A DNA stretch of 64,000 nt, from NCBI GenBank assembly GCA_029959195.1, contig CP114120.1, positions 434,001 to 498,000 on the forward strand. Direction: 5' to 3'. Under the pieces are notes generated by a model that saw nothing but the letters and a program-made list of their open reading frames with translations, was not told the origin of the DNA and did not search any database. The position numbers and the translations under genes are program-made. The DNA is from Dictyophora rubrovolvata. Its lineage: Eukaryota; Basidiomycota; Agaricomycetes; Phallales; Phallaceae. This document shows, piece after piece, positions 46,410 through 51,115 of this stretch (within the stretch, counting starts at the first letter, position 1; each line of letters begins with the position of its first letter).

Positions 46410-48408
46410 ATGACCGACGTCGACGCTAATGATATACCTAGCTCTCCTCCCATCCATTGGTCCAACGTATTTATCCTCTTTGGATTCCATCTCGGTGCTC
46501 TATTTGGAGTGCTTTATGTTACTCCCTGGTCGGTAGTACATGCAAAAACCCTGATCTTGACATGTCTCCTATGGCTTTGCTCAGGATTTGGGTGCGTGTT
46601 TGCAGGTTTTATGTTTAGGGTTAGTCGGCTGATATTGGAGTCGTAACGTCGTGCACAACGACAGCATTACTATTGGATATCATCGTCTGTGGTCTCATAG
46701 AGCATTTTCTGCCTCACTGGGTACCCGTATCGTATTATCTATATCTGGGGCTTTAGCTTTTCAATGGTCTATCAAGGTATTCAACCTTACCGTTTCTCGG
46801 CTGCTGACATTGTGTATATACGACTTCTTTTTCAGTGGTGGTAAGCGATTTGATGGTGTAGTAGTGTATCATCGAGATAAAGCTTAGAACTTGCGAACTC
46901 ATAGGGCCATCAGACATCGACTGCATCACGTGTGTGCTTTAAGATTGACTTTTCAACTATATATGTTTAACAAGCAATTTTGATTCTTCCAGAGATTTAC
47001 TGATGATCCATTCAATGATCCGTTTGTGCCAATTCCGCTGTCAATATCGTGTATGATCGCTGAGGCTACGATGTATCCCCCTAAGATACACTTTCTCCAG
47101 AGGCCTATATTTCTCTCATATTGGCTGGTTATTCTTCGATCCAGCATACCCCAAGCTATACTCTGTCGATAAGAATGATTTAAAGCGCGATCCGGGTATG
47201 TATTCTCCAATAGACGTTATCACGACTCCACTAATTCAGCTTTGTCTTCCTATGTATCTTTAGTTGTGGAATTCCAAGATAAATACTATCGTTCGCATTC
47301 GCATTAGATGTTTTGCAAAGCGGAAAAGACTAAATAGTCATAACTTTCAGTCCCTATCGCGGTGTTCGTTGGCTTTGTGGTTCCAACGCTTATTGGTGGG
47401 CTTTGGGGTGACACGATTGGTGGATTCATTTGGGGAGGATTTGTACACAAAGTAATCAGTACGTCTCTTACGGTTACATATAGTACCAGAATGGTCCTGA
47501 AAGTAAAATATTAGTTTGGCACACAACATTTGTCGTAAACTCGTACGCCCGCTATTTTTTCACCTGTTGATGATATTTGAAATCGCGTCAGGCTCGCGCA
47601 CTGGCAAGGTCCTCAAAACTATTCCGATGAAATGTCGGCCAAAGGTAATCTTGTAAGCTGGCTTCGCAAAATGGGAGCGTTGCAGGGATTTACATAATTA
47701 CTTCGGTCGCAGCTTTTAGCAGTAATCTCTTTGGGAGAAGGGCATCACAACTTTGTAAGGAGCTTTTCTCTATTATCGCCGTACAGACTAACTAGCGGAT
47801 TGATTTTAGCACGTGAAGAGAATTTGAGTTCCCTTATATCAGTGAAATCTTATCGTTTCATAGCACGCATTTCCTTATGATTATCGCGCATCTCCTGGAA
47901 AGTTCGAATATGATCCATCTAAATGGTTGATCCTTTTATTGGCACAGATCGGGTTCATCACCAGATTAAAACGAGCTGACGATGAAGACATCAAATATGC
48001 CATGAAATACATGACAAGGAAACACAAAGCGCGGCGTTCCAACGAGACATTGCCATGGACGGGTCCTATTTTCAGCCGCGAAGAAGCGGAACAACAAATC
48101 AGGGAGTCTCCTTCGACCACGAGGTGTTTTGTTGTTATCTACGATTATCTCGTAGACGCCACTAAGTTTATGAAGGACCATGTAAGTGAAATTATGCACC
48201 ATTCGTTGACTGTTAAAGGGTTCCATCATTGTATCTCAAGCCTGGCGGGGCTGCAATCTTCCGGCCTTACTCTGTTCGAGTCAGGGAAGGAGAAATTATG
48301 TGGCAAGACGCGACGTGGGCTTTCAAGACACATAACCGACATTCTATGAATGCTCGTAGAGGAGTTCGACAGTTGGCTGTTGCTAAAATATTAGATAAGG
48401 GGAAGTAA
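46410..48408 (+). CDS. ole1: Acyl-CoA delta-9 desaturase with C-terminal cytochrome b5 domain (Ole1-like)
   Basis: His box 1 is GYHRLWSHRAF (exon 2, 46665-46776). Box 2, RHRLHH, lies in a 25-nt exon (46905-46929) followed by RFTDDPFNDP. Box 3 is HNF-H-H-AFPYDYR if a 3-nt exon CAC (47810-47812) is included. A 5-nt exon TGGTG (46836-46840) supplies the WW before box 2. Membrane helices and YFSHIGWLFFDPAYPKLYSV, GFVVPTLIGGLWGDTIGGF and LAHWQGPQNYSDEMSAKG follow the family order. The C-terminus has a cytochrome b5-like segment, DYLVDATKFMKDHPGG, with a later His in NRHSMNAR, and the stop is at 48406-48408. The ER enzyme introduces the 9,10 double bond into palmitoyl/stearoyl-CoA. Around a dozen introns are required. 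The exon after NDP (47020-47100) and the join before AVISLGEG (47640-47720) are uncertain, so some blocks may be missing. Confidence 0.85.
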
Positions 48409-49402
48409 GGAAATAGTGGCACTGCGTGATACGGTGTGGTTTTGCATTCTAGAACCGCGTCTGTGATTGATGTTGACCAAACAAAGTGATGTGAATGTTA
48501 AAGGTGGTCTCATGGTATTATAAGGGCTTTTGAGCTATGTAAAGCTTTATACAAATAAAAAGACTGCCGGGTTCTGATTAGAGTTGTGTTACACTCAATA
48601 ATTTAGGACGAGTCCTCTGTCGTAACCCCTCATGTCGCGTTGGAGTTTACGATGCGGTCACAGTACATTAGAACTTATATTACATAACGCGCTGTACATA
48701 GTATCCTGAGGCGCCGGCCAAAAGACTCCGTCTTTTGACCGAAGCTCCTCAGTGCTTCATTCAACATGTCGGTGGTGGATGCCCGGAGGGTCCAAGCGCA
48801 CGAGCTTTGGTGGAGGTGAACGGGGACGGAGAACGATTCCGAATCGGGTTCAAACTCTAAAAATCATGAATTAGCTCTCTTGCTTTCTTTATTGTTTGGT
48901 TGTAGTACCTGGAAGCCTGTTCTTAACCTTGTCATGCATTTGCTGCGCGGTCTTCCGCGAAAACTTCCCCTGGTGAAATCCCAGGATGAGATGTTTGGTG
49001 CAGATCAAAGGGCCCGTGGTTGTGAAATCCAAAATTCACCATCATAATGGTTGTCCGAAAGCCCATTGAAAAACCATCGTTATACGTGGGTGGATGGGTG
49101 GACAGTGAGCGAATTAGGGAAATTTCGTGGAGTTCGGGGGGATAGAAAAGACTTTTGAAGTCGGAGAGAATGAGAATTGTTTCGTTTTATAGACAAGGTC
49201 GGCCACGGTCATTGGCAAGTATCCGACTGCTCCACAATGTTCGTTCGAACTCCGCCTCAAGCGCTAGTGACACTGATCAAGATTCAAGGCATTTGAAATA
49301 TCTTATAATCTTTTGGTTACCCTCTGACTAACAAGGTAAGCTTGCAAGTGTCATGGACATTCAATATGCTGATGATGGCAATTAATTAGAGTACTTAGCA
49401 GA
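48409..49402. other. About 1 kb intergenic region
   Basis: No gene was recognised. A minus-strand piece near 48760-48860 reads NPIRNRSPSPFTSTKARALG and ends in a stop, without a partner exon. Confidence 0.45.
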
Positions 49403-51115
49403 ATGGAGCTGGATTCAGGGCCCGTGGCCATGCGTATTCCTTACGAGATCTTAAGAGAAATAGTGCTCTATATGTACACGTACATGCCGCAGCCCGGGGG
49501 AGTGTTCGATGAAATCGGATTCATTCCAATATCACAGAAACCACCGATACCTGCTTCCCATGTTTGTCGTTCATGGAGATATGCTCTTCTATCCGATCCT
49601 ACATTGTGGACATGCCTCTTCATTCCGAAGACGAAACCTGGTGTAATAACGGAGCTGCTTCGTCGTTCGGGATCTGCCTTATTAACCATATTCTTTGTGG
49701 TAGGAAGCTCAGAGAATGGCAAACTGGATCCCGCCGATACATCCGACACGCTTTCCTCCGTTTTTCAACAGATCCATCGATTCAAGACGCTACACATGTA
49801 TATTCACTTTGACTGTCTGTGGGACCCTCCCGAACATCTGGAAGCATCGATCAAACAAGTTTTTCCATACTTAAAACGACCTGCGCCGGAGCTGCAAACG
49901 CTATTTTCCGCAATTTATGTTGATACCAACCTCGAAAGAACAATTTCAAACGCACTTTTCTCCATGGACGCGCCAAATCTCAAGTACATATTTAATCATC
50001 AGCTTTCTTCCGACATCGGAGAATTGCATTCCCCTTCATTTCATGGCTTGTTGAAGTTGGATTTAAATATACCAAATTACGCGGACGTCGATGGCTGTCT
50101 TTTACTCAATTTCCTGGAATTATCCCCCTGCCTGCAATTCCTTCGTATTTTTACCCATTGGCCGTCATCATATATTCGTCTATTCAGCGAGGATCCCATT
50201 CCCCGCAAGGTTAATTTGCCACATATACAAAAGCTCACACTACAGGTGAACCGAACGACCGAGTTAATGGACCTGATCTTGAGTAATGTAATTTTCCCCG
50301 AAACATTCACATGGAATATCAATTCTTTACATCTGCCGGAGTTCACGCACTGGCCGCCTTTAGTTCAGCTTCTGTCTCGAGCACAGTTCACGTCTCTTTC
50401 TATTCTGTTCTCCGGCGACTCGGATACTGAAAAACAATTTGTAAAGCTGGCGTTCGAAGAAAGTCACGACTCGGAATACGCCAATAAATTCGCGAGTCTT
50501 TACGATGACATGTCTAGGGCAGCAAATCATTGGGATCCGTTAATGCAATCTATCAGTTCCATCAATATCACTCACTTGAGGCTTGTGTTCGACACCTCGT
50601 TAGAATGCATACCATTCTCAAGGCTTTTTGCTTCGCTACAGAGTCTGGAGTCCCTGAGCATCAAAGCTAGCGTCAAGGATATATATTTATCGTGCTTATC
50701 AACATTAACACCGAAAATGGAAGGACTAGCAGTCTCGAAATACAATAATACGAGTGGTACAATGACTTGCGACACGGGTTCCATGCAGGACTCCGCTCTG
50801 AATATAGTCCCTGCCAATGGCCCAGAAGACACGCAACCCTTCCCTAATCTTGAAATATCTGTATTTCCCTGTCTATTTTTACGCGAACTGTATATCGATC
50901 TGAAAGACATTCCACTGGACGAACTTCTTGCATTCGCGCTAAATACTTGTTACGACAGACGTTGTGAAGAAGGATATCCATTAAAATTCTTTGTCCAATG
51001 TCCCGAAATAATATGGGACGATGTTCAACCTATACTGCAGCTGCGAGATGTTGAACCTATACTGCCACTGCAGCTGCGAGAAGGTGGCCTCATTCATGTC
51101 GAAGTTCGACCATGA
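49403..51115 (+). CDS. F-box protein, paralogue of the gene at 41600
   Basis: A single 570-codon frame. The F-box-like N-terminus reads MRIPYEILREIVLYMYTYMP, PASHVCRSWRYALLSDPTLW and ELLRRSGSALLTIFF, aligning block by block with the minus-strand gene at 41600-43159. Leucine-rich segments follow (FHGLLKLDLNIPNYAD, LLNFLELSPCLQFLRIFTH, LPHIQKLTLQVN, LQSLESLSIKA). Near the C-terminus a short internal duplication gives LQLRDVEPILPLQLRE (51038-51086). The likely role is substrate recruitment to an SCF ubiquitin ligase. The start at 49403 is set by the first ATG ahead of the domain. Intact. Confidence 0.87.
   Translation: MELDSGPVAMRIPYEILREIVLYMYTYMPQPGGVFDEIGFIPISQKPPIPASHVCRSWRYALLSDPTLWTCLFIPKTKPGVITELLRRSGSALLTIFFVVGSSENGKLDPADTSDTLSSVFQQIHRFKTLHMYIHFDCLWDPPEHLEASIKQVFPYLKRPAPELQTLFSAIYVDTNLERTISNALFSMDAPNLKYIFNHQLSSDIGELHSPSFHGLLKLDLNIPNYADVDGCLLLNFLELSPCLQFLRIFTHWPSSYIRLFSEDPIPRKVNLPHIQKLTLQVNRTTELMDLILSNVIFPETFTWNINSLHLPEFTHWPPLVQLLSRAQFTSLSILFSGDSDTEKQFVKLAFEESHDSEYANKFASLYDDMSRAANHWDPLMQSISSINITHLRLVFDTSLECIPFSRLFASLQSLESLSIKASVKDIYLSCLSTLTPKMEGLAVSKYNNTSGTMTCDTGSMQDSALNIVPANGPEDTQPFPNLEISVFPCLFLRELYIDLKDIPLDELLAFALNTCYDRRCEEGYPLKFFVQCPEIIWDDVQPILQLRDVEPILPLQLREGGLIHVEVRP

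Follow-up and report, generated by a model that had tools for sequence, protein, structure and literature searches.

Can a histidine that binds metal in the active site of a desaturase be encoded by an exon of its own, only three bases long? The question is raised by a gene in the 64,000-nucleotide stretch analyzed here (the window), which covers positions 434001 to 498000 of contig C4 in the 28.2-Mb genome of Dictyophora rubrovolvata. An initial annotation had proposed that the bases CAC form an exon between two short introns, and re-reading of the sequence returned exactly the same bases and coordinates. Between 47740 and 47875, on the forward strand, the upstream exon ends in TTT and is followed by intron 11 (47755 to 47809; GTAAGG...TTTTAG, 55 nt), by CAC as exon 12 (47810 to 47812), by intron 12 (47813 to 47863; GTGAAG...TCATAG, 51 nt), and then by CAC GCA TTT CCT. 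Both introns are of the GT-AG type and in phase 0. Intron 11 contains CTAAC, a branch-like sequence whose last A is followed by 18 nt of intron, and the 5′ splice site of intron 12 is weak. We use the term microexon for exons of about 30 nt or less with an intron on each side; at 3 nt, with AG before it and GT after it, exon 12 is such a microexon in the DNA. It is very probably real and spliced into the mRNA, because two sister genes of the same genome share the arrangement.

The gene extends from 46410 to 48408 on the forward strand and was modeled with 14 exons and 13 introns, giving a stop-free frame of 405 codons. Exon 1 (46410 to 46591) begins with an ATG start codon that was chosen by inspection. 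The homology model and a spliced aligner both supported exon 2 (46665 to 46776, 112 nt), which encodes the first His box, YHRLWSHR; exon 4 (46905 to 46929, 25 nt), which encodes the second, RHRLHH; exons 5 (46993 to 47021, 29 nt), 7 (47264 to 47290, 27 nt), 8 (47351 to 47458, 108 nt), 9 (47515 to 47542, 28 nt), and 10 (47592 to 47652, 61 nt); exon 11 (47713 to 47754, 42 nt), which ends with GGG CAT CAC AAC TTT; and exon 13 (47864 to 48181, 318 nt). Exon 14 (48241 to 48408) encodes the remainder of a cytochrome b5 domain, whose HPGG motif is split by the last intron, and ends with the stop codon TAA. For exon 6 (47086 to 47195, 110 nt), we retained the acceptor cctaag, preceding ATACAC, which gives the length found in the paralogues, is also chosen by the spliced aligner, and raises the FA_desaturase Pfam score from 48.4 to 59 bits. 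The acceptor ctccag, with which five residues seemed to be missing in that region, was rejected, as was an 8-nt microexon, GCTACGAT, at the same place, whose second intron would be only 28 nt. Exon 3 (46836 to 46840), outside the original finding, is a second microexon, the five bases TGGTG, which contribute the pair of Trp residues just ahead of His box II; it is backed by the paralogues, by spliced alignment, and by shuffles. Downstream of the gene lies a long open frame (49376 to 51115), with a weak F-box-like match between 49415 and 51112 (19.5 bits, below the Pfam cut-off of 24.3).

The predicted product is a fungal acyl-CoA desaturase of the Ole1/SCD (delta-9) type with a cytochrome b5 domain at its C terminus. 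A first model of 400 residues was used to search the PDB and the genome, and the Pfam comparison was repeated with the 405-residue model, which exceeds the cut-offs for both PF00487 (FA_desaturase; 59 versus 29.7 bits) and PF00173 (Cyt-b5; 26.5 versus 23.7 bits, over profile positions 4 to 43 of 74 only). Two distinct PDB sequences were matched at an E value of 0.001 or less, the acyl-CoA desaturases 4ymk (1.1e-50) and 4zyo (5.4e-49), which we take to be mouse and human SCD1. The motifs HxxxxH, HxxHH, and HxxHH plus NxxxH are all present and aligned with those of 4ymk and 4zyo, using the 400-residue model, and of Ole1, a fourth paralogue that this genome carries on contig C9. The third box, HNFHH, was aligned with HNYHH of both structures, in agreement with the earlier proposal that the small exon completes a desaturase box; exon 12 provides the first His of its HH pair. 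Beyond HPGG, the alignment shows that the window protein and its two C1 paralogues (see below) are each unlike Ole1. As only the first part of the b5 profile was matched as well, haem binding may differ.

The importance of this histidine can be gauged from SCD1, in which His298, His301, and His302 are among the active-site residues (PMC8533217). Those three positions fit the spacing of HNYHH. Nine His ligands are reported for the two irons; among nine His-to-Leu substitutions, His265Leu alone gave a protein of sufficient stability to be studied, and this protein had no activity (PMC10359943). A product that skips exon 12 would remain in frame, lack one iron ligand, and probably be inactive. 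That skipping inactivates the enzyme is strongly suggested rather than demonstrated, since no protein lacking one member of the HH pair is described in that work.

We enumerated the splice combinations between 47740 and 47900, with one or two introns of at least 35 nt, GT or GC donors, and AG acceptors. Only 1 of the 63 combinations, the one with the CAC exon, yielded HNxHHxFP, and removal of a single 109-nt intron (47755 to 47863) produced HNFHAFP. The claim that the box reads HNFHH with the exon and HNFHAFP without it was thus borne out.

Comparison of intron positions in related desaturase genes, which the initial annotation had put forward as a check, lent it further support. The genome search detected two tandem genes on contig C1 (P1 and P2), Ole1 on C9 (L028), and two more places on C4 outside the window (L029 and L030); the conservation analysis was carried out within this one genome and comprised the window gene and these five loci. 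Further PF00487 matches are present on C5, C3, C9 (at 1069 kb), and C11. P1 and P2, whose models were assembled by homology, have the same 14-exon structure as the window gene, and the lengths of exons 2 to 12 are identical in all three (112-5-25-29-110-27-108-28-61-42-3). Both share the two introns around the 3-nt exon, which reads CAT in P1 and CAC in P2, preceded by AG and followed by GT, so that both proteins read HNF-H-HAFPYDF. The 3-nt His exon is therefore found in three of three apparently complete genes of this exon structure, and the TGGTG exon is also common to P1 and P2. In Ole1, the box HNFHHQFP is free of introns, and the corresponding codon lies inside a long exon.

The three genes are diverged. 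The window protein is 57.1% identical to P1 (228/399 residues), 55.6% to P2 (224/403), and 37.8% to Ole1 (145/384), and P1 and P2 are 71.1% identical (297/418). Synonymous sites have reached saturation among the three genes (pS of 0.76 to 0.84), where pN values are 0.16 to 0.30. The introns flanking the 3-nt exon are 51 to 58 nt long in the three genes. In five of six comparisons between genes, these introns were no more alike than shuffled sequences at about the 10% level (102, 23, 100, 47, and 178 of 200 shuffles reached the observed score), the exception being intron 12 of P1 and P2, whose likeness was reached by only 2 of 200. As the flanking introns have lost most of their similarity, the AG-His codon-GT arrangement was retained while its surroundings changed. 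Duplication of one intron was also considered as the origin of the pair. The similarity between introns 11 and 12 does not exceed that of shuffled sequences in the window gene (score reached by 106/200) or P1 (138/200); P2 shows a weak likeness, with a score reached by 10 of 200 shuffles.

The boundaries of P1 intron 8 and P2 intron 10 were set by homology. The former (L027, minus strand, donor 5492) is a GC-AG intron if the homologous position is taken. The donor of the latter (L027, minus strand, 1473) is GA instead of GT, which represents either a rare GA-AG intron, a recent donor loss, or an assembly error. Because of this donor, P2 may not be a fully functional witness.

The exon was then sought with a purpose-written spliced protein-to-DNA aligner, which freely chooses GT-AG introns of 40 to 200 nt, at intron penalties of 4, 7, 10, and 13. 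The query was the C9 Ole1 protein, whose box is uninterrupted by an intron. Both the 3-nt and the 5-nt exons were returned in all three genes at all four penalties. In the window gene, the first 13 introns found at penalty 7 were those of the gene model, followed by a spurious fourteenth at the far end; internal exon lengths were unchanged at the other penalties, with a spurious intron at 4 and none at 10 and 13. The match to Ole1 ends or strays within exon 14. When other family members served as queries (penalty 10), four of four runs recovered the 3-nt exon, and the P1 query reproduced all 13 intron lengths of the window gene model. In the reverse control, the aligner found no microexon when the window protein was run against the Ole1 locus. 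It errs at non-GT donors, proposing a 7-nt exon in P1 by the GC donor and shifted exons in P2 by the GA donor. Forcing it to skip the 3-nt exon lowered the score by 7 points (penalty 7), 4 points (penalty 10), and 1 point (penalty 13), equally in all three genes, and left a gap opposite the His. This gain per gene is small because the scoring scheme dictates it; the weight of the aligner evidence is in the agreement of three genes and in the shuffles rather than in any single-gene score.

Chance was evaluated with composition shuffles of the segment between exons 11 and 13, with 6 bases kept at each end. The pattern AG-CAY-GT with both introns of at least 40 nt arose in 2, 2, and 1 of 1,000 shuffles for the window gene, P1, and P2, respectively, and any AG-NNN-GT in 83, 60, and 58. 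The aligner found HNF-H-H in 0, 2, and 1 of 300 shuffles in the same order. For the 5-nt exon, 200 shuffles of each gene gave no instance. Given that the three genes are related, these results are not independent draws. The 3-nt His exon is more than a chance occurrence.

Together, these data make it highly likely that the 3-nt exon is normally included, in a duplicate of the Ole1/SCD type that is rich in introns. Another reading sees in the window gene a duplicate in decay, with the microexon a relic of no consequence, which is compatible with the exon still being spliced. Two decayed partial copies, L029 and L030, lie on the same contig at about 512 and 540 kb, suggesting that the lineage of the window gene is prone to loss, and the window gene is the most diverged of the three (57.1% and 55.6% identity, against 71.1% for the C1 pair). 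The decayed copies are 71 to 76% identical to the window gene in the stretches that overlap it, and blastn returned no match of either across its microexon region. For both, the similarity extends past the stop codon, to about 48580 to 48590, and L030 has an additional match of 68.7% to 48909 to 49066. Summed over three segments, the window gene and L029 differ at 49 of 337 first and second codon positions, 34 of 168 third positions, and 123 of 558 non-coding positions, counts that are plain sums without a significance test. The lower divergence at positions 1 and 2 suggests past constraint on the window gene. The segments are uneven, with 10 of 51 differences at position 2 in one and, in another, 9 of 42 at position 1 versus 5 of 41 at position 3, so that two of the three show no clear codon-position constraint. 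Set against decay, the frame remains open over 405 codons without a stop and the His boxes are intact, and we regard the relic reading as unlikely.

A regulated cassette appears improbable too. Here CAC would be included for an active enzyme and left out under some conditions, giving an in-frame HNFHA product and turning the desaturase off. The initial annotation had raised such an on/off splicing switch, for which we found no support: constant inclusion suffices to account for conservation of the His codon. The length and phase of the exon mean that skipping would leave the frame intact in each of the three genes, yet a lone His codon that is always included would be constrained in the same way. 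A faint hint comes from the donor that follows the exon in the window gene, which scores 2.9 bits against the other sites of the three-gene family, where the median is 6.3 and only 3 of 38 other donors are lower; in P1 and P2, however, it is nearer average (4.9 and 6.7 bits). Another faint hint is that very small exons are in general skippable (PMC4674806), and a fungal precedent exists in the glucose-dependent, 20-nt microexon switch of Trichoderma Xlr2 (PMC11121469). Skipping would nevertheless require removal of a single intron of 109, 117, or 116 nt in the window gene, P1, and P2, respectively, outside the range of the 39 introns modeled in these genes (49 to 78 nt, median of 60).

A variant that we consider slightly less plausible still is a conserved control of dose, in which a regulated fraction of the transcripts skips the exon or splices it late, yielding a desaturase that lacks the ligand and keeps its b5 domain. 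If it were true, membrane unsaturation would be tuned by splicing. Finally, that CAC is no exon at all but part of one complex 109-nt intron, single or a stwintron, with HNFHAFP in a desaturase-like protein devoid of the ligand, is very improbable, for although its donor and acceptor are usable and in frame, AG-His-GT was kept in three genes with saturated synonymous sites, its sole change being synonymous (CAT/CAC), chance yields it in only 1 to 2 per 1,000 pattern shuffles and 0 to 2 per 300 aligner runs, and the length exceeds the modeled intron range.

How might an exon of three bases normally be included? On the established view, the splicing of genes whose introns are short pairs both ends of the intron, which makes exon size less limiting. 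The codon for the first His of the HH pair would be all that separates two distinct short introns, both in phase 0, and each could be recognized as a unit, by intron definition. Exon length would then matter little. Since three bases leave no room for splicing factors at both ends at once, the introns would have to be removed one after the other; the first removal would join CAC to an exon of normal length, leaving an ordinary short intron. Sequential removal predicts an intermediate with a single intron. Against easy inclusion stands the weak 5′ splice site after the microexon of the window gene, and in potato invertase, shortening an exon from 9 nt to 1 nt led to its skipping in 33% of the transcripts (PMC4674806).

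If included as proposed, a 3-nt exon carries a catalytic metal ligand and has outlasted the duplications behind three genes. Gene finders that drop such exons would render the desaturase apparently dead (HNFHA) or, by loss of the 5-nt exon, frameshifted; skipping of that exon would likewise shift the frame. The three genes would also offer compact natural test cases for the splicing of an exon too short to be recognized and for a possible fixed order of intron removal.

The exon had been described as close to the minimum size known for exons. Three nucleotides is indeed tiny, but exons of a single nucleotide are documented, including one in Fusarium, and the exon of the window gene joins a known class. 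The open-access literature searched yielded no description of a desaturase microexon, and the "3-bp exon 2" of Ganoderma gpd (PMC8379801) was set aside because the same paper shows those 3 bp to belong to a longer exon. In Ole1 of the same genome, the domain order and the HNFHH box are as in the window gene, whereas His boxes II and III are intron-free. Exons of 3 bp are described in Drosophila hth and, as cited in the same source, in Drosophila troponin T and rodent NCAM (PMC7392893). Like exon 12, they comprise one frame-neutral codon, but those of hth and NCAM undergo alternative splicing, the former is situated between domains, and none is described in that account as a catalytic ligand. 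The 1-nt exons of Arabidopsis APC11 (PMC4674806) and plant VPS55 (PMC8831610) are similarly too small to be recognized as a unit and are conserved, and that of Arabidopsis APC11 is constitutive; they differ in being from plants, 1 nt long, frame-essential, and experimentally tested.

Among fungi, the P450 genes of Phanerochaete combine short introns with microexons, some in conserved motifs, though in another enzyme family and with a shortest exon of 6 bp in that report (PMC1184071); an 8-nt exon of CYP5141A1 is cited in PMC12940212. The same article describes the nearest parallel, the 1-nt exon of Fusarium CYP621A, documented by RNA reads in two species. As here, an ultra-small fungal exon lies inside a conserved enzyme motif, its omission leaves an over-long apparent intron, an intronless relative serves as a ruler, and the exon is conserved in relatives (20 CYP621A orthologues). 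The CYP621A exon completes a Gly codon, is essential for the frame, and is confirmed by RNA, whereas exon 12, read from DNA, supplies a complete in-frame codon that specifies a metal ligand. What appears to be new is a constitutive-looking, one-codon metal-ligand exon, held through gene duplication together with an exon of 5 nt.
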